Origin: Cystobasidiopsis lactophilus
Lineage: Eukaryota > Basidiomycota > Agaricostilbomycetes > Agaricostilbales > Chionosphaeraceae
Reading direction: 5' to 3'
NCBI GenBank assembly: GCA_001599975.1
Contig: BCIO01000004.1
Span: 2,701,328-2,765,327, forward strand
Length of the DNA: 64,000 nt
Below, piece by piece: positions 1 to 64,000 of the stretch (position 1 is the first letter of the stretch; the number at the start of each line of letters is the position of its first letter). The translations under genes and the position numbers were made by a program. The notes beneath the pieces are model-generated. The model was not told the DNA's origin. It did no database searches and saw only the letters and a program-made list of their open reading frames with translations.

Positions 1-668
1 CGCTGTGCAACGATGAGTCTGAGACACCGACTCAAAACGAAACCTGGCTTACTTGGGGGTGCCAGTTCCGGGTCGGGTTTCGTTGATGATCTGCCACGTC
101 CTCGCAATGGTCGGGTCCATGTTCTTGAAGGGAGAGACGATGGGCCCGGGGTTCATCACTTCAAAACCGAGAGCCAGAGCGCATTCGACAGTCCCGGACT
201 CGACGGCTTGGCGAGCGAGGAAGGCAGCCGCAGAGCCTGAGGCACAGGCATTGTTGCAGTTGACAATGGGAATGGCAGCTGGAAGACAAAGGTCAGAGCC
301 GCGCGGGGCGCAAGGAAAGGTGAGTGCTCCACTCACTCATGCCCAGCTGGTAAAGGGTGCGCTGTCCACAGCCACTGTGTCCGTATGCGTAGGCAACGTC
401 TGGATTGCTTTAGTCAGCAAGGCAGTGTGTGGCGAGAGAAGCAGTCGAGAAAGGCGCACAGGCTTGCTCCACATCGTCGTAGTTGATGCCAGCGTCCAGC
501 AAGGCCTTGGTGGCAGCTTCCAAGCCAAGTTCATGGTACTGAACCTGCCCTCTGGGCTTCTGGAACGCGGTCACTGTGGTGGCGCCGGCACGGATTAGGC
601 TCTTCTTCGACGAGCAGAGCGAAAAGAAGCTCACTGCCAACGCCAACGATATATGACTTTCTGGGCAT
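1..668 (-). CDS. SCPx-type peroxisomal thiolase, N-terminal part (cut by window start)
   Basis: This gene runs off the left edge; about 150 N-terminal residues are visible. The start (ATG at 666-668) gives MPRKSYIVGVG, then an intron with GTGAGC donor, then TAFQKPRGQ, the usual opening of the SCPx/acetyl-CoA acetyltransferase-like thiolases. The block around positions 230-290 holds NCNNACASGS, which carries the nucleophilic cysteine, followed by FLARQAVESG and LALGFEVMNPG, all characteristic of the family. Family members cleave 3-ketoacyl-CoA, including 2-methyl-branched substrates from sterol side chains and pristanic acid, in peroxisomes. The C-terminus, where a PTS1 or SCP2 domain would lie, is outside the window. 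It is divergent from the racemase gene with 163 bp between start codons. Family assignment is firm; substrate is inferred. Confidence 0.88.
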
Positions 669-831
669 CTTTGCTTCGTTTTTCAAGAGATATTGTGAAG
701 AGAGAAAGTAAATATTTCAACCTCCTTGCGAGCGCAGGCCGCCGGCAATCATACGGAAAGGTGAGCTCCCTCAGTGAGGCCGTGCCGGCTTGCCTTTAAA
801 GTCCGCCTCCAAGAACTTTTCCTGCACAGCA
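669..831. promoter_or_regulatory. Shared divergent promoter, thiolase / racemase
   Basis: These 163 bp separate the start codons of two divergent peroxisomal genes and so must hold both promoters. The sequence shows an AT-rich stretch at about 671-712 and two copies of the palindrome GCCGGC at 741-746 and 784-789. The same pair occurs in the next divergent promoter at 4166-4323. No TATA box is obvious. Confidence 0.6.
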
Positions 832-2375
832 ATGGCCTCCAGTGGACCTCTGAAAGGCATCAAGGTGGTGGAATTCGCCGGTTTGGCGCCTGGCCCGTTC
901 GCCAGCAGTGAGGCCCGTTCAAGATCGGGGACAGCTTTGGCCAGATCTGAAAGCAGATGTCTTTCCGCAGTGCTCCTCGCGGACTTTGGCGCAGAGGTCA
1001 TTCGCATCGACAAGCCTGGTTCTTCATCCTCGGCGCCTCCAGACGTGCTTACCAGGCAAGTCGACCGTCATTAAACGAACAGACGGACGCGATTTAATTT
1101 AACTGCTTGCAATAGGCGGAAGCGGTCCATCGCTGTCTCGCCCAAGACCAAAGAGGGGCTGGACATCATCTTGAAGCTCATCTCGACCGCGGACGTCGTT
1201 ATAGACCCTTTCCGACCAGGAGTGCTCGAGCGACTTGGTCTTGGCCCCGCGGTGATCGCCTCCGCATCAAACAACCGCGCGATTTTGGCAAGGTTGACGG
1301 GCTTCCAGCGCACCGGCCCATGGGCCCAGAGAGCTGGGCACGATATTAACTATGTGGCTCTGAGCGGCGTTCTTGCGGTGAGCTCTCCGGCCAGTGCCGA
1401 CATCACAACACTGAAAAGCCTTTGCTCTCCCTTTTCAGATCCTGGCCCGACCAGAAGTGCCTCTTCCTCTTCCACCTCTCAATATACTGGCAGACTTTGC
1501 TGGGGGTGCCGTCATGTGCGTTGTAGGCATCTTGGTCGCCCTGTTCGAACGGTCCGTCAGCGGCAAGGGCCAGGTGGTCGAGGCCGACATGGTGAGTTCC
1601 TATCCCCTGTCTGGTCCAGTGCTAAGTAATCAACATGACAGCTCTCTGGGGCTCGTTATCTGGCAACCTTCCCTCTCATGGGCCAGATCGCAAATTCGGG
1701 CTCGACTTCCTGGGCCTTCCCACCGGGAGAAAATCTGCTGGATGGAGGTTCTCCTTGTGAGCGACCTTCAAACTGTTTACATAGCCGAGTCTCAATCGGT
1801 CGCGGGCAGTCTACAACACTTATGCTTGCGGCGATGGAAAATGCATCACGGTTGGAGCCATCGAGACCCAATTTTACAAGATCTTGCTGTAAGAAGCCAG
1901 GTTCGTCTCTCAACCTCAGGCTGATCAGGTCGCCTCCAGAGACACGCTCTATGCGATCTCGCCACCGCCGACTCCACAGCACTCGCAATTCCGCGAGCAG
2001 AACAATCGAAAGATGTGGCCCGATCTCAAGGTCTACCTCACGGCGACTTTCAAGTTGAAGGGACGGGATGAATGGACGTCCATCTTTCAAGAGCTAGACG
2101 CCTGCGTTGCACCGGTCTTGGATCCTTCTGAAGCTGCCGGCTCTGCCGAACCAGCTGCGGGCGTGCCCGAGATCACGCCTCATCTTTCAAGAACGCCTGG
2201 CTTGAGTGCCAAACAAGCGTCTGATAATGTAGGCAAGGAGTCGTTCATTCTACCTCCGGGGTCGCACACCACAGCCATCTTGCAAGAGCTAGGCCTCTCG
2301 GACAGCAAGATCTCCCAATTGAACGCTTCTGGGGCCGTCGAGAGTGTGAAATCGTATCGCACATCCAAATTGTAA
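832..2375 (+). CDS. Alpha-methylacyl-CoA racemase (CaiB/BaiF family) with PTS1
   Basis: AMACR interconverts (2R)- and (2S)-2-methylacyl-CoA so that branched chains can enter beta-oxidation. The start is [23 protein letters not shown]; the spliced continuation [16 protein letters not shown] is the family signature. Further on, [12 protein letters not shown] (catalytic His), ILADFAGG (catalytic Asp) and VGAIETQFY (catalytic Glu region) match racemases rather than formyl-CoA transferases. The protein ends in SKL, a canonical peroxisomal signal. At least five introns are needed; the one at 1056-1115 has a GC donor (GCAAGT) in place of GT, and splicing it restores the expected RRKRSIAV block. The stop codon lies 15 nt from that of the convergent dehydrogenase. 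A longer in-frame start at 790 adds 14 residues that do not look like family sequence. Confidence 0.9.
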
Positions 2376-2390
2376 TGCAAAGCACGCGTA

Positions 2391-4165
2391 TCAGAGTTTG
2401 GACTTTTGCTTCTTGGCCTGGTTGGCCTTGCCGAACCCAAACAATTTCTTTGCCACGTTGCGCATCTGGATTTGCTCCGACCCTTCCGTGATGCGGTAGC
2501 GCCTGTGGTGGCGATACATGTGCTCTAATAGCGGTCGGTCAGACGCGGTTTGCGCCCACAAAGGAGTAGGAAAAAACTAACCGAAGGGATAGTGTCGAGA
2601 ATAGCCTGTCCAAGCCTGTCAGCTGAGCTCCTGGCAGTAGTCGAGAGTAATCTTACCCATGCCACCGTGAACCTGGATGGCAAAGTCAGCCGCCTCGCAA
2701 GCCAGCTTGTTGGACCGGTAGTTGCACATCGAAACCCGATCGGAGAGGTGCTCGTTCACTTCGGCGCGGGTCATCTTGTCCATTTTACTGGCGGTGTCCC
2801 GGATAAGCATGCGAAGCATTTCGGCTTCGGTAGCAAAGTTGACCAAGGGGAATTGGATGGCTTGGTTGGAAGCAATTGGCTTGCCAAAGCTGAGACGCAA
2901 CTAGTTGAACTTTGCCTTGCCGGTCCGGCAACTTGAAGCACTCACAGCACACGTTCGTTGGCATACTTGACAGACGCATTGATACAATACACCGCTGCAC
3001 CTAGAGAGCTTGCTGCTTGTCGAATACGATTCTCGTTGAGGAAGACGCCCATCACGCTCAGCTGTTGGCTCCCTTGAGTCTCATGCCCAGTGTGGAAGAC
3101 ACAAAAAAACGAACCCCATCGCCTTCGGTGCCCATGATGGCCGAGTGCGGCACTCGGATATTCTTTAGTGTCACACGGGCGTGGTCGCTAGGCATGTTGA
3201 AGGTCCAAAGGCTGGGCGAGATGTCAATTGCCTGCCGGCCTTAAAGTAGTACAAAGCTCACTATTCTTCAATCTTGAGACCGGGGGCATTGATAGGCACC
3301 ACAAAGGCGGTCAGACCCTTTGCATCGCCGTCCTTGCCAGACGTGCGCGCAATGATGAGGTCGTGAGTGGCGATGTGCACCGCTGAAGCAGTTATTAGGA
3401 AAAGAGTATTCTATAGGAGATGTAGGCTTGCCTGTGTTCCAGATCTTTTCGCCATTGATGATCCAAGACTCGCCGTCCCGCACAGCTCTAGTTTCCATGT
3501 GCGTTGCATCACTTCCGTGGTTCGGTTCCTGGTACGCAATAAGCAATATTGCAGTGAAGGCAACTGATTGAGCTCACCGTCAAGCCAAAAGACATGTGGT
3601 ATTCGCCGGACAAGATTTTGGGCAGCAGCGTTCTCTTCTGCTCTTCCGAGCCCTTCGCGTGGATGATGATGGCCAAAGGCGCATTGCCGACTATAGCGTG
3701 CTCGTTCTGAATGTCACAGTGCAGGCCTGCTGGACGTCAGCAAGGGTAAAGGTCCGGTTGGTGTCAGTGTTAAGCCCACCGAGTCCCTTTGCCGTGAATG
3801 TCTCCCGGATAATAGCCACTGCTCGCGAAAGGTCAGCATTGGTTAAGCTGAGGAAGGGGGTTCCGCCCACTCTCCAAGTTGCCAATCGCCTCCCCACCCA
3901 GTGCTCGCGGAAAGGGGAGACGCCAGAAACCAGCTTGATCCGCCAAGTCTCGAGCCTTGTGGAGCAGGGCGTCCCATTCCTTGCGTGGCAGACCTCCTTT
4001 GTCCCAATCCGTGCGGGAGTGCTCGCGCCGGTAGTCAAAGAAGCGCTCGTTGTCGTCCTGGGCTTGCAGCGGCTTGATCTTGGCGTCGATGAAGGCGTCC
4101 AGCCGATCGAGCAGGTTCTGGATCTCGGGGGTGACGAGGTACTTTGTAGTGTCTGTCTCAATCAT
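2391..4165 (-). CDS. Acyl-CoA dehydrogenase with PTS1
   Basis: This is a flavin-dependent acyl-CoA dehydrogenase that would form a trans-2-enoyl-CoA. It starts MIETDTTKYLVTPEIQNLLDRL, with RFFDYRREHSRTDW about residue 45, a form I associate with bacterial catabolic dehydrogenases. The middle domain shows EPNHGSDATHMETRAVRDG and INGEKIWNTG (flavin and substrate contacts), and the C-terminal domain shows AIQVHGGMGKI. The last residues are KKQKSKL, a canonical PTS1, unusual because most fungal dehydrogenases are mitochondrial. Several short introns split the gene. It is divergent from the ACAD10/11-type kinase at 4324, with 158 bp between starts. In animals such a kinase and a dehydrogenase are fused in ACAD10/ACAD11, so the pair may act in sequence (inference). 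Confidence 0.88.
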
Positions 4166-4323
4166 GTTGCTTGAGAAGGTGCAAGACCAGAAAGGCAGAA
4201 GGTGGGGTTGGTCCAACGCGAGAGTGCGAGGCGTCGAATTCCCGCCGGCAGAGCAGCGCTCGCACAAGAGTGAAGTGGGCCGGCCTATTTTGCGTGCATC
4301 AAACTGCTCCCAACAGCATCGAA
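4166..4323. promoter_or_regulatory. Shared divergent promoter, dehydrogenase / kinase
   Basis: These 158 bp lie between the start codons of the divergent dehydrogenase and kinase. GCCGGC occurs twice, at 4244-4249 and 4279-4284. The arrangement suggests co-expression of the two proteins. Confidence 0.6.
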
Positions 4324-5964
4324 ATGGCAGCCCTGGACGACAAGGGGGTGGCCAACTTGGAGAGTTACCTCTCGCAACGCATCTCTTCTCTCCGACCACC
4401 GCTTCGAGTGTCCAAGTTTGCTGTCCGTTTCCCGCCTCTTGCGCGTGTGTCGAATCTGCTTGACATTGCTTGCTTGCACAGAACGGCCAGGTAGGCGTGG
4501 GCTTTTGAGGGCAAGCAGGACAGTTGATTAATGGAGTGGCCGTCCAGAGCAACCCGACGTTTTTGGTGCAGGATGCCAGGTTCGCGACTTTGACAACCCC
4601 AATCGTTGAATGGAGTGCTCATGGACGGACTGCAGTGGGTCCCGGTATGTGCTCCGACGGCGCCCACCCGGCAACCATCCGCCTTCGGCCCACAACGTGC
4701 AGCGAGAGTATGACATCCTCAGCGCCCTGCAGCACTACAACAGGGCCTTGACAGATGCCTCGAAGGCTGTCCCTGCCCCTCAAGTGTTCGCCATGTGCAA
4801 GGATGAGTCCATCATCGGCAGTCTGTTCTACATCATGGAGTTTCTGAACGTGAGTCTCGCCCTTTCTCCGCAGTGGCAAGACCTCATCTCACCCGGCTGA
4901 AAGGGTCGCATATTTACGGATGTCCGACTACCAGAGCTTAAACCCAACGAGCGGGCTGCATAGTAAGTGCACGGGTGTACATCGAAAATTACACCAACTG
5001 ATCAAGGACTGGCCCAGCTGGAAAGAGCTCATTCGAGTTCAAAGCTCTTTGGCGCGAGTGGATCCTTCCAAGCTGCCGTTCCCGTCAAATTTCTACAGCA
5101 ACCAGCCATTTTATGCGCGGCAAATCAAGTCCTTCGAGCGCATTGCCCGAACACAAGCCAGAGTGAAGGATGTAGAGACCGGCGAGGAATTGGGATTGAT
5201 GCCTGGCTTCGAAGAAGCGCTGGCATACCTCAAAAAGACCATGCCCAAGGGGGTTAATGATCAGGGGATTGCACACGGCGACTTGAAGGTAAGCTGCCCC
5301 CTCCTAATCTCAGACCTGAGTCACTTCTTACTGAATTGCTTTTTCAGATGGATAATGTGGTACGCACCGTGGGTTCGCGGGAGGCTGAAAGGCTCAATTC
5401 GATCCTCCAGGTGTTCCACCCAACCGAAGCTCGCGTAATTGGCATTCTAGACTGGGAGCTGTGCAGCCATGGGGCTCCTGTGAGTGTGATTGAACACTTT
5501 GACAAGGATACCAGGTCTGACCAGGCTGCTGAAGTTGGGCGATTTCATCAATGGCACTTCACCTTTTCTTCGGCCGGTCCAGCCAGACACGGCCTCAGCA
5601 TCAGATGCTTACCCTGGATTTGAAGGTGCTGATTTAACCAAACTGGGGGTGCCGCAGTACGAGGAGCTTCTCCAACTTTGGTGCGACGGGGCCGGTGTCG
5701 CTTACCCACCCCAGGAGATTGATTGGGCGACAGCTTGGTACTTCCTTCGCGTGAGCACTTCCTGATGCAACACCTTCCAGCAATTCAGTGCTGATTGTGA
5801 CTCAATTGTAGGGCGCGGTCATTGCCCAAGGCATTGCGGCCCGCTATGCTCAGCGGCAGGCCTCCAACGCCAAGGCTCAAGCATATGGCGAACGTCGGTT
5901 TATCAACATGGACATGACGCAGAAGTACATTCGGAAGCTGAAGTCCAGGGACTCCCACTTGTAG
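4324..5964 (+). CDS. ACAD10/ACAD11-type aminoglycoside phosphotransferase-like kinase, PTS1 variant
   Basis: This matches the N-terminal kinase domain of ACAD10/ACAD11. That domain is reported to phosphorylate 4-hydroxyacyl-CoA so that a dehydrogenase domain can remove the phosphate. Visible motifs in order are NGQSNPTFLVQDA (glycine-rich ATP loop), YVLRRRPPG (ATP lysine region), IMEFLNGRIF, AHGDLK-MDNVVFHPTE (catalytic loop) and IGILDWELCSHGAP (metal-binding DWE). The C-terminal half includes LGDFINGTSPF and WYFLRGAVIAQGIAARYAQRQA, also typical. The N-G-Q of the ATP loop sits on a 9-nt microexon at 4482-4490. The protein ends in SHL, which fits a relaxed PTS1. Here the kinase is a separate gene, not a fusion. 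Family is firm; the 4-hydroxyacyl-CoA role is inference from the mammalian relatives. Confidence 0.87.
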
Positions 5965-6206: not shown

Positions 6207-7557
6207 ATGGCCAAACCTGCACCAAGGAATCAAGAAAAGCTGCTCATTGAAGACAACATCGAAGTGGAGGACATTGGTTCCGATGAATTTTCAGGTGGGT
6301 TTCTTCCAAATGTTGCGCCATGGAGCAAACCTTGACGACGTAAAGCATGTCAGCATCAACATTATGGAGCTTGAATGTCGCTAGAGGAGCATACGGCGGC
6401 CAATTGGTAGCGTACGCACCCCTTTGGCGCGCCGTTTTGAATCCTTAATACTAAGCGTAAACAATCCTAGGCAAGCAGCGCGCAGTGCGACGCACACAGT
6501 CAAACCCCATCTTTTCCTTCACTCTTTGCACGCCTACTTTTTGTCGGCAGCAAACGTCACGCTCCCAGTCAAATACAAGGTCACACGGCTCCGTGATGGC
6601 CGTGGATGTGCGTCGTCTCAGCTCGCTGTCTCGCAGAGGCTGTCTTGAAGCGGGCTTCGGCAGACTGCACGCGATTCGTCGTTGGAAAGCAAGGGGATCA
6701 CCCAGTCGTGTCTATCATGGCGTCGTTCAAGGCCAAGGAGGGCACACCCATCAGCTTGCAGATTCCCTTCCCAGACGGCATCCTTCACCCCGACCGATGT
6801 CCGCCGACGAGGGGTTCTGCTCAAATTGTCTTGCAAGCTGAGCGCGCGGCACCCTTGGAACTGGCCGATCTACCGAAAGACGGTTTTGCCACACCGAACC
6901 GGTTGCGTCGCAGCATAGAACTACGGATCGCAAGAGGTGAAGATCAGCCGGAGAACGCATCGAAGGTGGCGACCGCACGGCATCTGTACACCCAGTCGAC
7001 CTGGATGCGCTGCGTCAAGACCGAGACTTTGGATGAGGCAATGCAGAGGGTGAGCCCCTGCTTCAGCTCGTTTACGTCTAACGACTAACGTAGCCGATTT
7101 TCACATAGTGTATTATGGTTTACATCAGTGATTTCGACGTTCTTGGAGCTGGCGCAGAGGCAGTAAGTCCGGTCGGTAATTCGGAGGCTTCCGCTCAAGG
7201 CGCGACAGCTTGGCCTGACCCGTCAATCTCGGCCACGGTTGGCTATGATGGTCTCTCTGGACCACAGTCTTTCGTTTACACACAAGTGCGTGGTCCTGTT
7301 CGATACCTTCCGCGCGGCTGATCAGGGTGGCAAAAACTAGTAAGCTTGATTTGAACGATTGGGTTTTACATCACAAGCAGTGTCGGGCGGCAGGCGATGG
7401 CAGAGCACTTGTTCAATCTGTAAGCCGTCTCTGCTTTGGCCGGTCAATGCCTCAATGCTGACGACAAACACATAAGGCGATCTTTGGCCGTGACGGCTGC
7501 TTGGGAATGTTGATCACACAGGAAGGGGTGATGCGCCCTGAAGGCTGCAAGCTGTGA
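6207..7557 (+). CDS. TesB-type (acyl-CoA thioesterase II / ACOT8-like) thioesterase, PTS1 variant
   Basis: A double-hotdog acyl-CoA thioesterase releases free acids and CoA, often at the end of peroxisomal chain shortening. The chosen start (6207) gives MAKPAPRNQEKLLIEDNIEV. Family landmarks follow: RRAYGGQLVAQAA, HSLHAYFL, RLRDG, RFVVGKQGDHPVVSIMASF, QIPFPDG, then YISDFD, LDHSLSF, DWVLHHKQ, RALVQS and LITQEGVMR. The exons must be joined across at least six short introns. The end is PEGCKL; CKL fits the relaxed PTS1 consensus. It lies 242 bp after the kinase and 140 bp before the acyl-CoA oxidase, all on the same strand. The exact exon boundary near 6590-6665 is uncertain. Confidence 0.83.
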
Positions 7558-7697
7558 CGACTCTGTGTACGCAAAGTCTCTGGAAGGTGGCTACTGGGTC
7601 GCGGCCTTCGAGCGAGATTCAGGTTCCCGTCGGCATCAAGGAGGAGGAGGGCTATGGGGAGATTTATATGTAGAGCAGACCCTTAGAACCGTGACAG

Positions 7698-10670
7698 ATG
7701 GCTGCACTCCAACTTCCTTCGCATCTGGCCTTCTCCAGCGCGCTGGGTCCAGACATCCTTGAGCGCGAACGAGCAAATGTGCCCTTCGAACCCCTCGAGT
7801 TGTCGCGATTTCTGTATGGCCAGGAGCACCTCGACCGCCAGGCCAAGATCCTTGCTGTCTTGATCAAGGAGCCGGCCTTTGACAAGTCAAACCTCTACTA
7901 CTTGGGCCGGAACGAGCTCTTCGAATGGGGCCTCAAGAAAGAGAAGCGGTTTGCGGAACTGCAGCTGCAGCAAAAGTGGACGCCCGCAGAGATCACGATG
8001 GTGTGCTAGGACAATGTGTTTTCTGGGGGAGATGGTCTGATCACTCACATTGAAAGGCCGAAAACTTGCTGGACGTGTCGGCCGCCTTGCGCCTTCACAA
8101 GCTTGTCTACGTTGGCAAGTCTACTGCACCCTAAGCTTATACTATTGCTTGACTGTCTGGAGCAGAAACTATTCGTGGTCAAAGCACAGATGAGCAGAAG
8201 CGAGTGTTCTTGGGACCGGCAGAACGCTACGAGCAGATTGGGTGCTATGCGCAGACTGAACTCGGACATGGCTCCAATGGTATGGGGTCTCCATTAACAA
8301 TGAGAAACAAGCCCTAAGGTGAATTTATTACAGTGCAGGGCTTGGAGACAACCGCAACCTACGACAAGTCGAAACGGGAGTTCGTCCTGAACTCGCCAAC
8401 CGCCACAGCCACCAAAGTGAGCTCGGACCTGTCTTTAATCACAAGGCTGTAGTCTAAGAGAGTTCATTCAGTGGTGGCCCGGATGTGAGCTCTACCTCTG
8501 CTGTTCCCTCGACAGCTGGCTAAGCTTGGGCAGCTCTTGGACGAACGGCCGATCACGCCGTCGTTATCGCCCAGCTGGTTTCCAATGGCAAACGATTTGG
8601 CCCTCACCCATTTGTTGTGCCTATCAGAGATATGAAGACCCGCAAGCCCTTGCCCGGGCGTGTTATTGGTGAGCAATTCGCTCCGTGCAAGCGAGGCTGC
8701 ACATCTAAGCGTCATATGTACAGGTGACATCGGACCGAAAGTCGGAATCAATGCTGTGGACAACGGCTGCCTGAGCCTTTACAATGTTCGCATCCCCCAC
8801 TTCAACATGCTGGCCCGGTTCAGCTCGATCGATGCGCAATCGGGCAACTACAATGCACCCAAGCGCCCTCAGCTTGCTTATGGCAGTATGACGCAAGTGC
8901 GTGGAAGGCTGGTAAAGGACGCCTCGTCAGCCTTGGCCCGAGCTGCTACGATTGCGATCCGAGTGGGTTCGGTCCACATTTTTTACACAGGTTCTCAGAG
9001 CTGACAGCCCTTCAGTACTGCACCGTTCGCAAGCAGTCCTCCAAGGAATCTTCGCCCAAGGGTGTTGAGAACCAAGTCGTGGACTATCAGTCGGTCCAAA
9101 TCCGCATCTTCCCAGTCCTTGCAGCCGTATTTGCTTTCCACTTTAGTGGGCTTTCAAAATGCTGTGTGTTTCGTTTTGAGTCTAACTTGGCAACTCAACA
9201 GCGGGGGAAGCCATCTTTCAGCAAAGCGTCGAGAACAGTGCAAGAATCAGTCAAGGCGATCTTTCGCTTCTCGCTGAAACCCACGCTGCAACGTGTGCTT
9301 TGAAGAGTTACGCTACGATATACACCGCTGACGCAATGGAGCGATGTCGTCGAGCCTTGGGCGGACATGGTTACTCGCTGGCCTGCGGCCTTGGCATGGC
9401 GACGTACGCTGTCTTGTCGTGTTCATGATCGACTCTTGCTAACAACTCCACAAATAGTGGAGACTATGTCGGAGGTGTTACTGCGGAAGGCGATTCATAC
9501 ATGATCCCGGTCAGTACACCTCCGAATTCTCGACCACGCATCACTCACACTTTGTCAACAGCAACAAGTGGCTAAATATGTAGGTGCCATCAGATCTCGT
9601 ATATTGGACTGGTTAAATGTGCTTTCATGATAGCTCTTCAAAGCATACCGCAAAGTGGTGGGCGATCGCTCCGGAAAAGCGGCGAATGAAGCCGAGGCCT
9701 ATATCGCTGATTACTTATCCGGTCCGCTACAGTCTCACATTGCGCATTTATCACGATACTTATGTTGTGTCGAGCAGATCCACGGGCTACGTTCTCCTGG
9801 CAGTCGCCGAGTGCACCCCCTTCACCCGCCCAAGTACGTACTTCATTCACTCGCTCACCTGTCGTGGAAGCTGAGTGCGGTCTTAGTTCACAAGAGCATT
9901 TGGTCATCGTGCAGCCTATCTAATTGCACGGGCTGTGGAGAAGATGGACAAGGAGAGAGTTTTATTCGAGGACTTGCTGGGTATGTCTGTCGCCCAAAGC
10001 CACCGATATACCCACCTCACCGTGTGATGCAGTTGATGTCACACGCATTTCCATTGCCCACGCCCAGTTCCTCCTCGTCTCAAAGTTCGCCAGCGCAGTC
10101 GAATGTGCCCGCGTGAGCGCTCCGCTAAGCGAGTCCCTAAAGTGAGCTGGTTCGTTCTTTCTTTCTGGGTGTGTCTGACGTCTGTCTTCAGGATCTGTTT
10201 TCAACTTTTTGGTGGGTTTTGGGGGTTTTATTTACCGTGGCGAGTCAACGCTGAGTGCGAAGCAGCGTGCCACACAATGGACCAAGAGGCGGCCGACTTC
10301 CTGATTTCGGGGTTTTCAAAGGCACAGCAGCATGAGTGGCTAAGGCATCATAGTGAGTACTTTGATTCCCGGGAAATGCCTTACTTGACATGCGGTTCGC
10401 CAAGTCAATTCACACATGGCGGCTTTGCGCCCAATTGCGGTTGGACTGGTAGACAGTTTTGCGCTGCCCGACTACCTCTTGAACTCAACAGTGGGACGCT
10501 ATGACGGAAACGTGTACCCAGCCATCTTCGACTTCGCGGCGCGCTCTCGTAGGTCGATGCTTTAAGGCGGTGGCCCGATTGTTCTGATACTGGGCCCAGC
10601 GCTTAATACCGTGGACTGGAACCCTTCACTTGGAGCTAGCAGCGTTGTTGTCGGAAAATCAAAGCTGTAG
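7698..10670 (+). CDS. Peroxisomal acyl-CoA oxidase with PTS1
   Basis: Acyl-CoA oxidase makes 2-enoyl-CoA and hydrogen peroxide, the first step of peroxisomal beta-oxidation. The start MAALQLPSHLAFSS and the following ERERANVPFEPLELSRFLYG match the N-terminal oxidase domain. Next come YAQTELGHGSN (flavin-contact motif), GLETTATYDKSKREFVLNSP, WWPG, FVVPIRDMKT, GDIGPKVGINAVDNG, and in the C-terminal half RRALGGHGYSLACGL, next to the usual catalytic glutamate region, and the GDYVGGVTAEGD block. The final exon reads WNPSLGASSVVVGKSKL and stops at 10670, so it carries a canonical PTS1. The gene has many short introns. A little over 600 residues are expected, the usual family size. It is convergent with an SDR gene, with 114 bp between stop codons. 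Confidence 0.9.
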
Positions 10671-10784: not shown

Positions 10785-11960
10785 TTACTTGTTGACAGTC
10801 GCCACTTGCTCCAAAACGTCCCGGCAGATTTCGGTCGGTCCGCGCTCCTGCTCCATCCAATCCGCCACATCCTCCAGAGTCAGCTTCTGGTCATGTCCTA
10901 CTTTTTGGGTGCCATAAACGACCTCTGAGATGTATCCACGGGTTGTGAAAAACCCTCTAGAGTTGTAGGGGCAGCTCTCGTGAATGAGGTAAACGGCGCA
11001 AGGCTGCAAATTAACATTCGATCAGCTCTCGCCCTGTATTAGCCCTATAGAAAGAAACTTACTGCACAAAGCTCGGGTGTAGCATCCTTGACTTGCTCGA
11101 GGATGGCGGGGTCGGTGATGTTCCTCTTCATAGCCGCTGTGGTCGCCGAAGGACCCATCGCGTTGATCTGAATGCCGACGTGGCGGCCTTCCAGTCCCAA
11201 AGAGCGTGCAAAAGACATCTGAGCCGCTTTTGCAGCGGTGTACTGTGCAAAATGTCACTGGAGGGTCTTTTGCCACTGTGTGCGAGCTCACATTGGCCCA
11301 TTCTTCGAGGCCGAACAAGGACGTCGAGCTGATATTGAGGATGCGACCGTAATTGGCAGCCACCATGTGGGGCCAAACGGCCTTGATCATCATGACCGGT
11401 CCCCAGTAGTGCATCTGCGGATTGGCTTGAGCAAAGCGACCGCCGCCTCGCAAAGAACCATCTCACCTCAAACAGCTTGCGCATGTCGTCCACCGTCGTC
11501 TCGGCAAACTTTCGCTGGTAGGCGAAGCCAGCGCTGTTGATGAGACCATCGATCTTAGTGGAGTGTCAGCGCTCCTCGCCGACCACCTTGTTCGCCGCGT
11601 CCACTCACCTTTCCGTACTTAGCGATGACTTTCTCCACCAACTCTTTGATGTCGGACTCGCTCGTGATGCTCCCTACGTAACCAATGTGTTGGCCCCCGT
11701 TTTTGGCGAGCGTTTGCGCAAAATCGACAACGCCCGGGTTCTGCTGCTTCGTTAGCAGCATCGGACCATTGACGAAAGCACTCACCAAGTCAAAGCAGAC
11801 CAGCGAAGCCCCGCGCTCGGCCAGCAGTTTGGAGTAGGCACCTCCGAGCTCGCCGTTCGCTGCGACGAGATTCAGCGTCGGCTCAGCTCCGGGAACGTCG
11901 CCGCTCACCGCCAGTGACGATGACAACGCGACCTGCAAAGCTGAGCTGTTCTCGAGGCAT
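10785..11960 (-). CDS. Short-chain dehydrogenase/reductase, MFE-2 SDR-like
   Basis: This is an NAD(P)-dependent SDR. The start MPREQLSFAGRVVIVTG leads across an intron into ANGELGGAYSKLLAERGASLVCFDL, a Rossmann-fold dinucleotide site. After HIGYVGSITSES come MMIKAVWPHMVAANYGRILNISS, the catalytic-serine strand, and YTAAK, the YxxxK catalytic pair, followed by SLGLEGRHVGIQINAMGPSA. It resembles the SDR units of the multifunctional beta-oxidation enzyme at 24685-28413 but stands alone. A C-terminal tail with TTRGYISEVVYGTQKVG also resembles those enzymes. The protein ends VNK, not a PTS1. It may oxidise a 3-hydroxyacyl-CoA or a ring alcohol; the substrate cannot be told from sequence. At least four introns. 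Confidence 0.83.
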
Positions 11961-23149: not shown

Positions 23150-23215
23150 GCAAAAGACATTCGGATTGGTGAAGGCGTACGGCCTTTGAATCAAGTAAAG
23201 CCCAGCTGTGAATAG

Positions 23216-54724: not shown

Positions 54725-55848
54725 CTAAGTGAGAAAGCCACCATCGATGATGACCGGCGCGCCCGTGATGAATGAAGACTTGGTCGAAAGCAAGAAGCCA
54801 GCCAAACTTTCCGCCTTGCGAATCAGCTCTTTCAGCATGGTAGAAAGTGAGAAGGGCTTACTTTGCAACTTCTTCCGGCGTACCGGTGCGCTTCAAGCAT
54901 GAGTACTCGGCCAGGGATTGCTGTGTAAAGAGGCCTTTATCTACTCCCGCTTGAAGGAGTGGCGTGTCGATAGAGCCAGGAAGGACGGCGTTGCATCTGA
55001 TACCGTCAGGACCGTAGTCTTTTGCTGCGACCTTTGTGGTGATGGAAGCGTGAGGGAGTATATCGCAACCAAATGATCCAGACAAGCGCACCTTGGTGAG
55101 GCCGACGACTGCCGAGCTCGGCTTTAACGGAAGTCGCGGACCATAGCTGCATTATGGACTCACCAGCATGCTTAGAAGCCACATAAGACGACGCTGGCGC
55201 GAGAGTGAGAGTCAGCCTAATCGACCGGGCAAAGGAGCAAGATGGCGAACCAAACCATTGCCCAAAAGCACCTGAGACGCTTGAAACGTTGACTCTGCAT
55301 GATCACAGGCCACGTTAGATGATTTCAATACGCATCAGGAGAAGATTTTTGAGGAAACGGACACGCTGCCTCCCGCCTGCAGATATTTGTACTGCGCTCG
55401 CATCGAGTTCTTGATGCCGCTCAAGTTCACGCCTAGAATAAACTCCCATTCTGTTTCTCTTGCATGAGATGACTGTTCAAGGCGGAGAGACAAGGAGAAT
55501 GGGTCGCCACGCACCCTGTTCGTCCAGCTCGCCAATTCTCGTCCTTGAGAGCGTCTGCACGCCAGCCGCGTTGAACGCCCCATCCAGCCTTCCAAACGTA
55601 TCAAAGACCTCCTTGGTGGCCTTCTCGACAGCCTGTGGGTCAGTCACATCGACTGCTTTAGCCACCACTTTGGTCGCGTTGCCGCTTCGCTCGATGTCCT
55701 CCTTGGCCCGATCGACCGCTGCCTGTTGCAAATCGAACAGCGCAATGCCGGCCGCTGCTTCTTCTGCTAGTAATTGTGCGGTCGCAAGGCCCATACCAGA
55801 CGCTGCACCAGTGAGGATGTAGAAGCGGCCTTCGTGTCCGGATTTCAT
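54725..55848 (-). CDS. Short-chain dehydrogenase/reductase
   Basis: A classical SDR. MKSGHEGRFYILTGAASGMG opens with the nucleotide-binding loop; IALFDLQQ, FNAAGVQ, NVSSVSGAFG (catalytic serine) and SSYVASKHAG (YxxxK) follow, then YGPDGIRCNAVLPGSIDTPLL and ITGAPVIIDGGFLT at the end. The stop is at 54725. At least four introns fall between these blocks. It lies between two paralogous kinases and is divergent from the second (232 bp apart). Likely oxidises or reduces a ring or side-chain alcohol. Confidence 0.85.
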
Positions 55849-56080
55849 GTTGTTTTGGGTGGTGCTCCAGGGTCGGGCGTCGTTGTTGCTCCTGCCTGGC
55901 GACCAAAGACGAGCCAGAACGACCCCGCCGCCCCTTCATCACCTCGCCGCTGGCGCACCAGACGGGGAGCGCTCGGCAGCGGGGGTTTGGCTTGCGGGCG
56001 GCCGTCTCGAGGAGACGAAGTGCTTTTGCATGATTTTCTCGGTTGCTCTCGTCGTGTTGCGGATCGGAGCTTGAAAAGTC
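55849..56080. promoter_or_regulatory. Divergent promoter, SDR / kinase
   Basis: 232 bp between divergent start codons, GC-rich, with a CGGCCG near 56000. No clear TATA box. Confidence 0.5.
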
Positions 56081-57768
56081 ATGGCTGCTCTCTATGCTGG
56101 TCGGATCGAAGAAGTGACCGCCCTTTGGGAAGAAGAGCAACAGACCCCAAAGCTGGCCGAGCACTTGGGCGACTTCCCGATCTCATACGAGGCCATAACC
56201 AGCCAATGGCTTGAAGAGACAATCGGCAGGAAAGTCAAGGGAGCGAAGGTGCTGTCGTTCGAGCTTGGGCCACCCGACGACGGAACGACGAATCGCCGTG
56301 GTCTTACCATCGAATGGAGTGTGCAATCCGAGCTTCTGCCTCGCAAGGTGCGTCCACTCGTCTTCGATGTGCTCTCTTGTCCTTATGCTGACCCGTGTAC
56401 AGGTCTTTGCCAAGTCTACTATGGACTTACTGAACCGATTGAACCTCTGCTATGGCGCTTGCGGGTGAGTTTCGTGCTGTAGGGTCGGGCTCGCATTCTA
56501 AAGCTACATAACAGCTCTGAAGTCACTTGGTACAACGCAAGTCTCATTAAGCGTGTGGTATTGCTGTTGCGAGGACTGACGCCCCCCGCGTCCATCAGGT
56601 CATTGCGCCAAAGGTCCCGGAATTCCCGACCCACCGAGTGGCATACGCTGGCTGGAACCCCAAAACCGCAAACTCCATCATTATCATGGAAGACTTGAGC
56701 GATTCTGTGGAGTTCTTGAAGTTTGACTCCGAAGTCACCAGAGCGAACGTCGAGGACCAGCTGTCCAGCCTGGCGTTTCTGCACGGCAAATTTTGGGGCC
56801 TGAAGGATCCAGACGCTAAGGCTACTTTGGTAGGTGCCTCAGTGTGGCTTGACTTCGTTTCTCGTCTTCCGATCACCTCCGCTCACCAAAGTCACGTAGC
56901 GCTATCGGGACCAATTTCAGTTCATGGTCAATCACCTACGAATTGAGTCTGCGTCCACCAACGGGTTTATTAGGGTCAGAGCTGCATGTCACTTGCTCCG
57001 AAGTCCGCCTCTCATCTCGCGCGCACAGGCCAAAGACATTATTCCGCCCGCGCTCTATGCTCGTGCTGACGAAATTTGGCCTGCAACTCTATTCGACTGC
57101 CACAACAATGTGCCAATGACTCTTTGCCAGGGAGAGTGAGTGCTTCTTACGCTGATAGGATCGGGCCTATTTGAACGATAGTACAGCCCACACCTTTCCA
57201 ATTGGTTCCGTGTGAAGAAGACGGGCAAGATGGCTGCTCAAGGTGAGTTCTGACCTCTGCATTTGTTTGCTAAGCTCATATGGACCTTTCAGACTTTCAA
57301 AACATGGGCGGAGGTAAGCGAAGCCTCTCGTTTTGGCGCGTACACGACTCAGCTCGGCCTCAGGAAACCCATTTCGAGACGTCATTTACAACATTACTAC
57401 CGCTCTATCAGTCGAGAAGAGGCGTGCATGGGAGAAGGACCTCGTCCGCCACTACCTCAGCGAGCTCAAGCGGCACAACGGGCCGGAAGTTAGCGAGGAG
57501 GAGGCCTGGCATCAAATGGGTGTCCATTCCTTCACCGGATTGGCGGTGTGGACACTGTGCAACGCCCCGAGCGAGATTGTGGGTCGCTCCAAAGACTGCC
57601 GGTTTTGCTTGATCTCATATCCACCCTCCACAGACGCCGTTCATGCAGCAAGGCGGCAATGTCCAGACTTATATCACCCGTCTAACCACCATGATTGACG
57701 ACATCGACGCGTTAGGTGCTGTCGCCGAGGCTCGCAAGCGGAAGAGCCAAATGCTTCAGGGATCGTGA
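56081..57768 (+). CDS. Aminoglycoside phosphotransferase-like kinase (paralogue)
   Basis: Start MAALYAGRIEEVTALWEEEQ, then TTNRRGLTIEWSVQSELLPRK, spliced to VFAKSTMDLLNRLNLCYGAC. ANSIIIMEDLSDSVEFLKF is the hinge; LSSLAFLHGKFWGL follows. The catalytic loop, spliced across a GTGAGT intron, reads CQGDPHLSNW; so His is replaced by Gln while Asp stays. After GKMAAQ and GGNPFRDVIYNI comes a C-terminal part with DLVRHYLSELKRHNGPEVSE also seen in the kinase at 52796. The pair arose by duplication and flanks an inverted SDR. The end is MLQGS. Confidence 0.86.
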
Positions 57769-57993: not shown

Positions 57994-60517
57994 ATGGTCC
58001 ATACAGCGTTCTCAAACGGCGTCCCCGAAGACTTTGCCCAAGTCGCAGCCGCTGTGCACACAAAGGCTTCGGTGCCTCCGTTGGTCGGCAAGTTTACGGT
58101 ACGCAACTGATGTTCCAATCTCTCAAAGACGCTCCCCTGAACTCCAGAGCAGGAGAAGATCGCGCCCGACACCGACGCGGTCGCCACTGTTCAAGAATGG
58201 TTGTCCGGGTTCGGCCAGGCGAGTTCCCGTGCTGTGGCGGAGAAAGCCTTCACACTGACTTGAAAGACTCAGGCCTTGGCGGCCAACGACTCAGCGGCGT
58301 TCGCTCACTTGTTCTGGGAACATGGCTGGTGGAGGGACAAGCTTCCTTTTACAAGCGACATTCGCAGCCTGTACGGGCATGGGCTCATCAAAGAGGCTTT
58401 TGAGGTCAGCCATTTGATCGTATTAGCAGCCTCGGTGAAGCTGACACGCAAAATTTGACAGCATGGCGCCAAGCGGGCAGGTGTGACCAAGTTGACCTTG
58501 TTGCCGGCTCCCGCTCCCGCCATTGCCAGCCCTTACGACGACATCTCCTTCATCCAAGGCCACTTCACTTTTGACACCATTGCTGGATCCTGTGTCGGCA
58601 TTGTCAATTTGGTTCAAGTCGATGGCCGGTTCGTTGCTTGGACCTGCCTGACCATGCTGGAGTCGGTCCATCAGTACCCGGAAATGGATCGGCCCTGGGG
58701 TACTGACAGGGGCTATTCCACCTGGGAAGAGCAGAAGGCGGCTCAGAATGCTGCTGACGAGCAAAGCCTGCAGGTGCTGATCAGTGAGCATCTTCGACTT
58801 TCCTGCGGAAGTACAATGCTAAATCTCTCCTCTCAGTTGGTGCTGGCCACAGTGGACTCATGCTGGGCGCTCGTTTGAAAAAAATGGGCCTCAGGGTGCT
58901 CTTGGTGGAGAAGCATCCCCGAGTTGGTGACAACTGGAGAACTCGGTTGGCTTGGGTCCTTCATATAGTCGACGCCACGTCGCTGATGTCGGTATGCAGC
59001 TACGACAATCTCTCTTTACACGACCCGGTATTTTCGGACGCCCTGCCTTACATGCCCTTTCCATCGACGTGGCCCATCTTCAGCCCCGCTGGCAAACTAG
59101 GCGATTGGTTGGAGATGTATTCTTCTGCTTTAGACGTGAGTCTTAGTGCCCTTATCCGGTGATGAGTTCGGGCTGTTGACAGAAAACGCAGCTTAATGTC
59201 TGGACGTCGAGCGCCGTCACTCAAGCGGTCTTCGACAAAGATGGCGGCAAGTGGTCTGTCACCGTCGAGAAGAAAGGAAAAGCTCCTGTCGTGCTTCAGA
59301 CTGGACACTTGGTGGTGGCGACTGGGCTGGGAGGAAGCAAGCCATACGTTCCGCCTCCCAGGCCGGGCCAAAGCGACTTCCCTGGTCCTATTCAGCACGG
59401 TTTCGAATTCAAGTCTGGTAAACCTTGGGCGGGCAAGAACGTTTTAGTCGTAGGAACGGGTTCATCGGGTGAGGGCGGCCTCTTCGCTGCGCTGGACGTT
59501 CGAACTGATCCTCGTTCAGGCTGGGACATATCTTATGACTTGGTCAAGAACAATGCCAGTGTGACACTTCTCCAGCGATCACCTTGTTACGTGTGAGTTT
59601 GTCGAGCTCTTCTCGTATTTCCCTCCGCGAGACTCACCCGGACCCTCAGGATGTCTGTCGCCAAGGGAATTCCCGCTCTTATGACGCCACTCTACTGGAA
59701 CGGACCGCCTCAAGATGTGAGTGTGGCTCCTTGTGTGGCCCCGCTCTTGAGCTCACCCCAACCGGATCCTAGGTGGCCGACCGCCTTTCACAGGCCATAC
59801 CTCTTGCCGCTGGAAAACTTCTCCTTGCCAGGAAGGTTCAAGCCATTGCGGAACTTGACAAAGAGTTGCTAGAGGGCATCCGGTCAAAGGGTCTGCGCAC
59901 TTGGTTTGGTGAGGAAGGAGGAGGAAGCACAGAGTTGGCTCTCAAACGCGGGTGAGTTTTCTGATGAGCACAGCTGCTGCCGACACTTCTAACAAACTAA
60001 GACAGAGGTGGCCTCTATTTTGACGTTGGATGCTGCGTGAGTGAGGATTGAGAGCGTCTCATTGACGCGTCTCACCTCTTTTCAATCGGCCATCAGGATC
60101 TCATCATCCAAGGCAAGATCAAGATTCAGCCCGGCACGATTGACCATTTCGAAGAGTCAAAAGTAGTCTTTGCAGACGGCGCGGCGGACAACTTCGACCT
60201 CATCGTTTTCGCAACCGGTTATGACACGGTGAAGAACTCGCTGCGTCCCATTTTTGGTGAAGCAATCAATGATGTAGACGATATGTGAGCTCAAATAACA
60301 CTCTGTCATCCTACGGCAACCTGATGTTCTTCGCGTCAGCTGGGGCCTCGACGAAGAGGGTGAATCCAAGGGGTTATGGAGACCGCTAGGACACCCGAAT
60401 CTCCACGCCATGCTCGGAGGTTTCCAAATCTCTCGTGTCAACTCGCTAACTCTTGCGGTCGGGATCGCTGCCATGGAAGCTGGTGTTGCCGGAGAACCTC
60501 TCCGTCGCCAGTTTTAG
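57994..60517 (+). CDS. FAD monooxygenase with NTF2-like N-terminal domain
   Basis: This is a class B flavin monooxygenase of the YUCCA-like type common in fungi. It opens MVHTAFSNGVPEDFAQVAAA, then a SnoaL/NTF2-like region from about residue 35 to 180 with AFAHLFWEHGWWRDKLPFT and FIQGHFTFDT. The FAD loop spliced from VLI is IGAGHSGLMLGARL, with LLVEKHPRVGDNW. FPGPIQHGFEF (FxGxxxH) and VLVVGTGSSGWDI (NADPH loop) follow, then FATGYDTVK, the usual FATGY. The end is GVAGEPLRRQF. More than ten introns. It probably oxygenates a ketone or other carbon; N-hydroxylation cannot be excluded. Confidence 0.88.
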
Positions 60518-60627: not shown

Positions 60628-61996
60628 TCACGCCTTGCGCTGTCTGCGCTTGAAAGTCTCCAGCTCCTCCTTTGTGCCTTTGAGTTGAACAAAATCAGAG
60701 TCTAGGAAGGAGGCCATGGTAGGATCGTGAGCAAGCCAGACGTTCACATTCTTCTCCAAGTCCATGCGCCCGCATTTCGACATGGAACGATAGGCTTCGG
60801 CTGTGCAATTGTTCATTCTTGCTCAGATAGAGGCGCAAGGAAAGCACAGACCGAGATCTTCCTCGAAAGAGACCAGCGCGTCTTCCTCTCCTTCCTTTGC
60901 TCCACCCAATGGCCCAAGCCGGGCCGGGTAAAGCCCCACGTAGGTGCCAGCGTTGCCATTCTCGCCAATGAGCTGCGCAAAACTAAGCGCCAGAGTCGGC
61001 CGTGAAAGTAGGAATGTGCTCACCGAGATATGATGTGCAACATCACCCGCAAGCAAGTGGTAGACCGGCGGCTCGCTGGATGTACGAACTAAGGCAGAGA
61101 TATGGCCTGCCATCAAAAGGTCAATCGGCTGGCAGCTATCGAGGCTTTCTATTCACCTTCCATATGGCCTGGCGAATCCAGCAAGAACAGGCTACCATCC
61201 CGAAAGTAATCGAGGCCCTTGAAGGCGCCTACTTGGATCCAGTCGCCGGACGCGCGGTCGAGAAAAGTGACTTTGCGTCCCTCGAGCGCCGACTCAGAGA
61301 CCTGGAAAACTGACGAAAGCTCCGAGGTCGTGAGCTTCGTGGCGCGTGGGCCGAGGATGAGCTCGGTCCGAGCCGCAAGGCCAGAGACGTCGCCGGTGTG
61401 CTGACATTCAAGTCAGCTTCGGCATGCTGGTAGGATACTGAAAGGCACCAACATCAAAGTGGTTGTGGCTGATGATAAGCGACTCGATGCTGTCCAACTG
61501 AACGCCAGCCTCTTTGAGGATCTGCGGCGCGCCCTTGGCACTCATGAAGTCAAATTTGGCAGCCACCTCCACCAGGTGCGGATTTTGGAAGGCGCAGTCC
61601 TGGTATTGAAACCGTACTGATTAGACTTCTATGGGAGAGAGCCAGCTCGTAACTCGCCTTCTTGATGCCCAAATCGAACAGCACTTTTCTGTCGCCCTTC
61701 GCGCTTTCGATAAGGAACAAATAACACTCCATCGGCATCTCGTCCTTGTGGTCCATCACCCAGTAGAAGCCAGGCATCTTGAGGCTGCCGGCCTTTGCTA
61801 CGGATAATTTGCAAACCGATCCATCCCCTGCCGGGATGGCTTCAAAGGGCTGCTCATAAGGTGGGATCGGCTTCAAGGCCTGCAAACGGGCAGACTCTTT
61901 GGCAATGCGCTCTGCAGTCGTATGAAGCTGGCACATTGGTGGCTGTAGCACCGTGACCGGGTCATGGGCGGCGCCATACGCCGCCAGAGAGCCCAA
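60628..61996 (-). CDS. Metallo-beta-lactamase-fold hydrolase, lactonase-like
   Basis: A di-metal hydrolase. The start MGSLAAYGAAHDPVTVLQPP leads to MPGFYWVMDHK and KVLFDLGIKK; SLIISHNHFDHTGD is the metal-binding HxHxDH motif; GSLFLLDSPGHMEG gives a further His, and YHLLAGDVAHH an Asp and His. This pattern fits the AHL-lactonase-like branch in fungi. The end is EELETFKRRQRKA. At least four introns. Beside the monooxygenase at 57994 it would be placed to open a lactone (inference). Convergent with that gene, with 110 bp between stops. Confidence 0.85.
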
Positions 61997-62327
61997 GCGG
62001 GGGCAACGCCTCTCAACGGGGTATACAGCACGGCACGCTCATGCCGAAATGCGGGACACAAGAGGCAAGCACAGGGCATAAAGCAGTGAACGAAAGCCTG
62101 GCACAAATAGACCACAGGGAAGGACGAGAACAAAAGTCAAATCGCCGGCCGCACAAGCGAGCGCAGGATTTTGCCACTCGCGGCGACTGGGCTCAATACC
62201 AATCCCAGACGAAGGAAAAGCACGCGAGGCGATATGTGGAAGTCTTTCAATTGGCATTGCGCCGATCTAAATTGGCAAATCTTGGGCGCCGTGCCACGAC
62301 CCAGTGGCAAACGGCAAGGCGATCGCC
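61997..62327. other. Intergenic, lactonase upstream
   Basis: 330 bp; holds the lactonase promoter and the end of the PRISE-like gene. One GCCGGC near 62147. Nothing else seen. Confidence 0.4.
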
Positions 62328-64000
62328 CTAAGCGGGAGGTGGCAAGCACTTGTTCTTCTCCGCTTCCTTGAACATGGCGATGTGCGTCTCGGTAGAGTCG
62401 CAGTAACCAAAGAAGCCATAGTCTCGGCACTTCGTCCTGATGCCCAGAGTGAGAAGGGCCTCTGACGAATCTTTCGCAGACAAAGCCTTACATCGACATG
62501 CTGGAAAGAGCATCTTAATAAGGGCTCCTGTTTAGACAAAAGTCAAGGGGGGCCACTCACTTGCCTGCGGAGAGGAGACAGGCCGTCAGACAAGACCCCG
62601 CCACGACAAAGATTAAAACAAGCTTACAATCCCACTGGATCCCAAACAAGAAGTCCAACAAGGGCCACCAGGTCTTTTCAAAGACGGCGGGCTGGAGGTC
62701 ATGCTTCTTCTGCAGGCGGGCGAATGCCTCTTTGACCTTGGGCTGGGCAGCCCAGTTGGCCATGACGATGCGATTCTTGAGCTTGGCCGGGAGACCGTCG
62801 CGAGGAGATGGCACTCTGGTGTCCATCTCGGCCTCGTTGGGCTCGTCACCAGTGAGCTTCTTGACCTTGACGCCATAGTATTGAGCCAGCAGCTGGAAAC
62901 CTCGGCTCCAGGTGTACACATCGCCTGCTCATCCCATAGTCATTATTGAGATCAGACTGGCATAACGTGAACCGACTCGCCATTCTGAATGTTGAAGTCC
63001 TGGTTATGGCACCTGGGACATCGGGTCAGCGGGCGGACCTGCCACCGAGAGGGAAGTAGACCCACTCCTTGTGCAGAAGCGAGTACTCCTCGAAGCAAGC
63101 ATTCAATGGCGCATAGGACTGGTCGCAGTACGAGATGTAATTGGTCTGGCAGGCAAGGTCAAACAAAGCCCGACATGACGCCGAGATGCATTCACATACA
63201 TAGGTTCCAGGGAACTCGACCTCTGTCTCGCCCATTTCCTTGCAGAGAGCAAGATACAAGGCGTAGGCCATGGCGGCGTTCAAAGCGTTCACTTCTTTTG
63301 GCGCACCAACGATGAAGGACGGGCGAACGACGGTCCAGGCGAATCCGAGCTTCTTGGCTTGAGCCTTGAGCTCTGCCTCCTGGGCGTAGTAGAAGTTCGC
63401 CTCGTAATCAGGGGCCGGGTCGCCTTCAGTGCCGGGAGAGAGGATTGGTCCCAAGTGGAAGCCATCTGCGCGCCAGATCAGATTCGCCTGGTCTTGTCAA
63501 TGGCGAGGCAAGCTTACAGTTTTTGGTGCCAGTCTGCAAGCAGACACCCTTGAGCTTGCTACCAGACTTTGCGGCAGCCTCGATGGTCGCTTGAAGCATG
63601 TAAGTGTTGTTGGCCACCAGGGAGTCGGTGGCGGACCAAAGCGAGTTGGCTGTCGCTGTGGACGAGACTGACGAGTCGGTATAGCTGTTCCACGCTTGCT
63701 CAGTGCTCGCTCTGTGGCGCTCGATCAGAAGAACCACTCACGCAAAGTGGAAAATGTAGTCCACAACAATGCCGCGCTTCTTGAACTCGGCCGCCAATTC
63801 GTCACTCGAAGAGTTAAGCAGGTCGAGCGCGCTGGAACAGCATTCAGTCTGTGCGTTTGCTGCTCGAGTCCGATCGCGCTTACTGATGCTCGGCGCCGGG
63901 AGTAGCCTTGGCTGGAGGGCGACGGCTCACCGCGAACACTTTTGCCCACCTGCCAGTGCCAGCGCCAGCGCCACCATGCATATGCGACGCCAGCCACTCG
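62328..64000 (-). CDS. PRISE-type (progesterone 5-beta-reductase/iridoid synthase-like) reductase, 5' end cut
   Basis: The N-terminus lies beyond 64000. Visible sequence: GTGRWAKVFAVSRRPPAKA, ALDLLNSSSDELAAEFKKRG, VDYIFHFA, VCLQTGTKN, then FYYAQEAELKAQAKKLGFAWTVVRPSFIVGAP, CECISASCRALFDLACQTNY, DVYTWSRGFQLLAQYYGVKV and the C-terminal exon TKCRDYGFFGYCDSTETHIAMF. These match the extended-SDR PRISE family, which reduces enones such as progesterone or 8-oxogeranial. YYAQE shows the Tyr of the family's YxxxxE-like variant rather than classical YxxxK. At least six introns. Fits an early step on an unsaturated ketone (inference). Confidence 0.85.

Follow-up and report, generated by a model that had tools for sequence, protein, structure and literature searches.

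The DNA analysed here, a 64,000-nucleotide stretch of Cystobasidiopsis lactophilus (the window), covers positions 2701328-2765327 of contig C4 (BCIO01000004.1) in a 22.1 Mb, 8-contig genome and carries two groups of genes, a left and a right wing, that an earlier note had described as a single degradation path. All coordinates are given relative to the window. Genes were modelled with a splice-aware ab initio gene finder, for which the window, its flanking sequence and stretches from three further genomic places served as training data, and the models were read from -40 to +104 kb (144 kb). Introns in these models are numerous and short (median 58 bases). Gene families were assigned by Pfam profile search of the models, with some neighbours assigned by eye, and protein matches to Naganishia, Plicaturopsis and Phenoliferia were among those found in the homologue searches, which like the introns points to a basidiomycete, probably a yeast. 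Model ends are uncertain for the thioesterase, MFE-2, the exons of EcKL1 and EcKL2 and one TM7 intron (all described below), and two models outside the window are fusions of adjacent genes. The gene content that had been claimed is largely present in these models. However, its limits are not those of the window, since cluster genes lie past both edges, from about -10.2 to +84 kb, and its unity did not hold up either.

The left wing spans -6.9 to 30.4 kb, and in the models and Pfam assignments the genes of a plausible degradation path are contiguous there, as in a catabolic cluster. Left of the window lie an acyl-CoA synthetase (-6871..-4535), an FMO-type monooxygenase (FMO1, -4324..-1413), an MFS transporter and a short-chain dehydrogenase/reductase (SDR), then a CRM1-like exportin identified by eye. 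The SCPx-type thiolase gene (-1255..668, -) crosses the left edge, with its 3' part in the window (1..668; Thiolase_C_1 91 bits, Thiolase_N 78 bits). It is followed by the alpha-methylacyl-CoA racemase AMACR (832..2375, +; CoA_transf_3 209 bits), whose top solved matches are true racemases (287 bits to 8rmw) and whose His, Asp and Glu residues, which we take to be catalytic, align with those of the solved racemases, identifying it as a racemase. Next come an acyl-CoA dehydrogenase (ACAD; 2391..4165, -; Acyl-CoA_dh_1 141 bits) and, divergent from it, an APH-type kinase of the ACAD10/11-LvaA kind (4324..5964, +; APH 112 bits), a weak acyl-CoA thioesterase-like gene with a poor model (6717..7673, +; Acyl_CoA_thio 25 bits, cut-off 21) and an acyl-CoA oxidase (7698..10670, +; ACOX 115 bits). 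The multifunctional beta-oxidation enzyme MFE-2 lies further right (24660..28413, -; two adh_short matches, MFE-2_hydrat-2_N 140 bits, MaoC 58 bits), the uncertainty of its model being at the C-terminal end. One more ACOX locus was found elsewhere in the genome, together with MFE-2-type hydratase matches at three places, which suggests that the copies in the cluster are dedicated to it.

Between ACOX and MFE-2 are an SDR (10785..11960, -; adh_short 138 bits), two alpha/beta hydrolases (12156..13779, -, weak, with Peptidase_S9 34 bits and Abhydrolase_3 30 bits; 13887..15213, +, Abhydrolase_3 142 bits), a type I Baeyer-Villiger monooxygenase (BVMO1; 15653..18309, +; 206 bits to cyclohexanone monooxygenase 6era) with an N-terminal extension of about 150 residues, and the ecdysteroid-kinase-like gene EcKL1 (18606..20275, +). 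A dienelactone-hydrolase-like gene (29101..30446, +; DLH 24.6 bits, cut-off 21) closes the wing. The fingerprint of type I Baeyer-Villiger monooxygenases is [FY]xGxxxHxxxW[PD]. It is present in BVMO1 as FKGKIFHTQAWD and in a second BVMO right of the window (70543-72866), and absent from FMO1 and from the right-wing enzyme at 57994-60517. Of the two flavin monooxygenases in the window that had been credited with oxygen insertion, BVMO1 thus has the fingerprint and the other is of FMO form. Of the proposed ester and lactone openers, a right-wing metallo-beta-lactamase-fold hydrolase and the two alpha/beta hydrolases are present; the dienelactone hydrolase match is weak. Genes that had gone unlisted are the thioesterase-like gene, a sub-threshold Mpv17/PMP22-like gene (20395..21594, -; 24.8 bits, cut-off 27), an intron-containing gene for a multi-pass membrane protein, TM7 (22048..23149, +), and a GFO/IDH/MocA, Gal80-like gene (GFO; 23216..24430, -; 117 bits). 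A bacterial origin of GFO was considered and rejected, the best of its listed matches (120 listed of 1192) being basidiomycete.

Promoter regions of at most 450 bases were compared, with divergent pairs counted once (14 left-wing, 8 right-wing, 5 centre, 16 flank and 14 elsewhere). The word CCGCCGG occurs in 6/14 left-wing regions compared to 0/43 of all others. When all 7- and 8-letter words were considered, an enrichment this strong came up in 2 of 200 length-matched permutations. Ten genes have their modelled starts 41 to 126 bases from one of the six sites: the acyl-CoA synthetase, FMO1, SCPx, AMACR, ACAD, the APH kinase, both alpha/beta hydrolases, EcKL1 and MFE-2. Within the window the sites are found at 739..745 in the divergent SCPx/AMACR promoter and 4242..4248 in the divergent ACAD/APH promoter and, as CCGGCGG, at 13821..13827 between the alpha/beta hydrolases, 18528..18534 upstream of EcKL1 and 28489..28495 upstream of MFE-2. 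An earlier gene-level test (10/29 vs 0/51) double-counted divergent promoters and was not relied on. Additionally, C-termini of the peroxisomal targeting signal type 1 (PTS1) kind are carried by five left-wing models, namely the acyl-CoA synthetase, AMACR, ACAD and ACOX (all SKL) and the APH kinase (SHL). Because of these ends, the true AMACR, the presence of ACOX, MFE-2 and SCPx and the common promoter word, the left wing is read as catabolic and peroxisome-centred, and judged from its sequence it looks like one peroxisomal regulon. The peroxisomal beta-oxidation with AMACR and SCPx proposed for the window is supported for the left wing, though just the 3' part of SCPx is inside the window.

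The solved relatives of the APH-type kinase are led by 3dxp (142 bits), which was deposited as a putative acyl-CoA dehydrogenase, followed by ACAD11 (8v3v, 126 bits). For ACAD11 the kinase residues D220, N225, R86 and R176 have been named (PMC12440821). Three of them (D220, N225 and R176, placed by chain numbering) are matched in the C. lactophilus kinase. R86 did not fit the numbering, but the arginine two positions away, next to the alphaC glutamate, has a counterpart in the kinase. The same paper gives R626, H634 and R637 as the positions at which non-conservative substitutions were most disruptive to the ACAD step (PMC12440821). The adjacent ACAD has F, Q and S at these positions, as placed by eye on a conserved arginine without the ACAD11 sequence itself, and as it matches 0/3 phosphate-binding residues it was rejected as an LvaC/ACAD11-type enzyme. 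The genome contains no unbroken coding word for GRIHHCMR, although a copy split by an intron would have escaped notice. Apart from HCMR and its spacing, the word is our assumption of what an ACAD11-type motif looks like. HCMR and the spacing follow the published text (PMC12440821 / PMC11342911).

About 22 kb of unrelated genes separate the wings, encoding a CFEM protein, an NTF2 protein, two glyoxal oxidases, a TCP-1/CCT chaperonin subunit, a secreted protein (by eye) and a sugar transporter. The right wing then contains EcKL2 (52796..54563, +; 43.5% identity to EcKL3), an SDR (54725..56031, -; adh_short_C2 136 bits), EcKL3 (56081..57768, +; EcKL 33 bits, cut-off 22), an FMO-type monooxygenase (57994..60517, +; FMO-like 60 bits) whose relatives match about fifteen other places in the genome, FMO1 and BVMO1 included, the metallo-beta-lactamase-fold (MBL) hydrolase (60628..61936, -; HNHFDH; Lactamase_B 35 bits; solved relatives weak, best 22.8 bits) and a PRISE-like enone reductase (62328..64000, -; PF22917 60.7 bits, cut-off 27). 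The PRISE gene runs to 64131, with its 5' end outside the window, and its nearest solved relatives are 5-beta-reductases and iridoid synthases (76 bits to 6el3). Right of the window are a CoA-transferase III, a Fungal_trans regulator with a sub-threshold C2H2 match, the second BVMO, an S15/CocE-type hydrolase, an SDR and an NmrA protein, and, by eye, a further regulator and an MFS transporter.

Part of this wing has a copy on contig C6. A search of the genome located a CoA-transferase III there, with an EcKL at a distance of about 3.3 kb, and the 13 models in 30 kb around them include an SDR, a Fungal_trans protein, a P450 and an FMO as well. The CoA-transferase is 56% identical to the right-wing one, the EcKL 46% to EcKL3 and the FMO 48% to the right-wing FMO. 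The simulated chance of this trio is about 0.001, a value that uses rounded family counts taken from exon hits and was calculated after the trio had been noticed. None of the 13 models had a blastp match to the left-wing beta-oxidation enzymes, the CoA-transferase/AMACR family aside. The right-wing module therefore also occurs apart from the left wing. When C6 was read later, CCGCCGG was found three times upstream of the CoA-transferase, at about 400 to 1100 bases before its modelled start, and once about 300 bases upstream of the FMO.

The four kinases previously counted in the window were confirmed as one APH-type and three EcKL-type genes by the models and by homology. EcKL3 belongs to the EcKL family (PF02958) by score, and EcKL1 and EcKL2, which have no Pfam match at 0.001, by homology; most of the listed EcKL1 homologues bear PF02958. 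Phenoliferia psychrophenolica has an EcKL1 homologue (RQP46_011233). In a tree of 44 rows, comprising 37 of 90 homologues and leaving out other EcKL matches of the genome, EcKL1-3 and the C6 EcKL form one clade with Phenoliferia and P0042 (SH-aLRT 97) amid bacterial or unnamed sequences.

The search for TM7 homologues, in which the 7997 candidates sharing most words were scored, found 40, and all of the 7 that are named to organism are bacterial. TM7 itself has no Pfam match and a bacterial homologue has no NCBIfam match. Its introns and its location within a contig of 3.1 Mb show that the gene does not come from a stray bacterial contig. A tree of 50 rows places it within a set rich in actinobacteria, on a long branch and with no well-supported sister. 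An apparent GC-AG intron at 22713-22769, seen by eye when the DNA was compared with the bacterial homologues, was missed by the gene finder.

A phosphoenolpyruvate (PEP)-utilising enzyme or an EcKL lies within 4 kb of TM7 in 8 of 14 bacterial loci (L023, L024, L025, L027, L028, L029, L033 and L035), and in the other 6, some of them short-flanked, no phosphotransferase was found within 4 kb using these queries. GFO directly adjoins TM7 in 2 of the 14 (L025 and L028), as in the fungus. A few bases are shared between TM7 and EcKL in Hydrocarboniphaga, and the contig there also carries a CrtO-like flavoprotein, an acyl-CoA-synthetase-like gene, a TonB receptor and a PQQ alcohol dehydrogenase. Across the nine bacterial genomes behind nine of the 14 fetched loci, a phosphotransferase lies within 10 kb of 15/33 TM7 hits, some of them weak, where 2.95 were expected, and with one TM7 counted per genome this holds for 6/9 genomes (0.51 expected). 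It should be noted that the null spreads genes evenly and independently whereas PEP-utilising genes cluster, so that the resulting P is too small. The C. lactophilus locus resembles the bacterial EcKL/TM7 loci in having a homologous TM7 close to a phosphotransferase, but it differs from the actinobacterial TM7 loci with such a neighbour, where this is a PEP-utilising enzyme in 6/7 and an EcKL in 1/7.

Several actinobacterial TM7 contigs (loci L024, L025 and L026 and contigs G001:C78, G002:C222 and G003:C101) are also rich in PEP-utilising enzyme matches, with 6 on G001:C78, 7 on G002:C222 and 5 on G003:C101. Mce-like genes, seen by eye in L024 and L026, and flavin monooxygenases accompany them. 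These contigs possibly represent an undescribed catabolic island.

Taken as a whole, the sequence data suggest that the locus is probably a catabolic island of modular build, with a peroxisomal regulon on the left and a related module on the right, which serves to degrade a lipophilic compound that is branched or cyclic and likely isoprenoid-like. AMACR and SCPx act on methyl-branched chains. Together with the relatives of PRISE and the CrtO-like neighbour in one bacterial locus, they make an isoprenoid-like substrate the favoured, if unproven, choice. In the proposed scheme the BVMO would oxygenate a ketone, the hydrolases would open the ester or lactone and the PTS1-bearing acyl-CoA synthetase would activate the acid, after which AMACR would set the 2-methyl stereochemistry and ACOX/ACAD, MFE-2 and SCPx would shorten the chain inside the peroxisome. 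The kinase of the ACAD10/11-LvaA kind, with its PTS1-type end, may phosphorylate a hydroxyacyl-CoA derived from lactone opening, and EcKL1 may phosphorylate a hydroxyl of the uncleaved substrate with TM7 as its functional partner. The right module (EcKL, FMO, CoA-transferase III, BVMO, esterase and PRISE) would be under other control and may serve to prepare or process a different part of the molecule. A more tentative proposal, which we consider rather doubtful, is that TM7 and a phosphotransferase (EcKL in the fungus and Hydrocarboniphaga, mostly PEP-utilising in actinobacteria) make up an undescribed phosphorylation step for lipophilic alcohols that the basidiomycete acquired from bacteria and integrated in the peroxisomal regulon.

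Several observations weigh against this interpretation. CCGCCGG occurs 24 times over the 144 kb, 17 times within genes and 7 times in intergenic sequence; the seventh intergenic site lies in the centre at 32815, beyond the 450-base promoter limit, and the word also occurs in two intergenic stretches of unrelated C6 genes. The word was discovered and tested on the same data, and no regulator was found to read it. No PTS1 was found on the MFE-2 model, with its uncertain end, and SCPx ends in ARI. As the ACAD lacks the phosphate-binding residues, the known kinase-dehydrogenase pair is incomplete. For TM7, 18/33 bacterial hits have no phosphotransferase within 10 kb, and a structure model of a bacterial homologue (mean pLDDT 86) yields no clear fold match.

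The alternative closest to the earlier note is that both wings form one path, co-induced to degrade a single substrate in sequence. EcKL, FMO and CoA-transferase III family members do occur in both wings, and CAGTGGCA is found in 3/14 left-wing and 3/8 right-wing promoter regions compared to 0/35 others. However, the best scores for words common to both wings were reached by 64 of 200 permutations, and CAGTGGCA was rejected as evidence. With CCGCCGG in 0/8 right-wing promoter regions, unrelated genes including a chaperonin subunit between the wings, and the right-wing trio recurring on C6 without the left wing, a single path seems unlikely and that part of the note is not supported. A different proposal concerns the kinase step. 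Here BVMO action and lactone opening would give a 4-hydroxy acid; after its activation the PTS1-type kinase would add a phosphate and the neighbouring ACAD would turn the product into an enoyl-CoA, in the manner of ACAD11 or LvaA/LvaC. The ACAD11-like residues of the kinase and its divergent arrangement with an ACAD, both with PTS1-type ends, fit such a route, and judged from the sequences its first half is plausible here. The F, Q and S in the ACAD and the absence of the GRIHHCMR word argue against the second half, making the complete route a little less likely still than a single path.

It is also conceivable that the island builds or modifies a secondary metabolite instead of degrading a carbon source. 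FMO, P450, SDR and local regulators are known from biosynthetic clusters too, and all of them occur here, the P450 on C6. However, no polyketide, peptide or terpene synthase was found among the Pfam-scanned models and a near-complete peroxisomal beta-oxidation set is present, which makes biosynthesis quite improbable. Least likely is a chance neighbourhood of large redox families. SDR, FMO and hydrolases do belong to large families, as the many relatives of the right-wing FMO illustrate, but the acyl-CoA synthetase, SCPx, AMACR, ACAD and ACOX lie within 18 kb, and five PTS1-type ends in one wing, the promoter word and a paralogous mini-cluster of low simulated probability are more than chance.

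As a modular catabolic island, the locus can be compared with several known systems. Like fungal catabolic clusters, of which the salicylate catabolism cluster of Aspergillus terreus is an example (PMC7842363), it brings degradation genes together in a fungus; unlike them as described there, it is peroxisome-centred, has four kinases in the window and is partly of bacterial affinity. It shares with ACAD10/ACAD11 and the lva operon an APH-type kinase, in which the catalytic residues and one residue of the CoA site match, next to an acyl-CoA dehydrogenase, and ACAD11 is peroxisomal (PMC12440821, PMC11342911). Here, however, there are two genes, and the dehydrogenase is without the three phosphate-binding residues. 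The succession of BVMO and ester hydrolase recalls zearalenone opening by the basidiomycete yeast Apiotrichum mycotoxinivorans, although the enzymes there are predicted candidates and no comparable cluster is described in the available text (PMC7416605). If the proposed interpretation is true, phosphorylation of lipid-like alcohols would be an early step common to bacteria and fungi that degrade recalcitrant cyclic or branched compounds, TM7 would gain its first functional context, and the island would be a source of BVMO, hydrolase, AMACR and kinase activities for use in biocatalysis as well as a directly testable case for the role of an EcKL-type kinase outside insects.

Some minor observations were made in passing. 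Two adjacent glyoxal-oxidase-like genes within 36657-44951, one of them Pfam-scanned, are 75% identical, and a third fragment of this kind is apparently present near 86.2-87.6 kb (by eye). An epimerase-like protein stretch was seen by eye in two opposite-strand models (-33810 to -30082 and -26398 to -25346), which suggests a recent local duplication. Finally, matches to an acyl-CoA dehydrogenase and a CoA-transferase III lie less than 4 kb apart on another contig (G000:C3:303293-307191), a possible further catabolic cluster.

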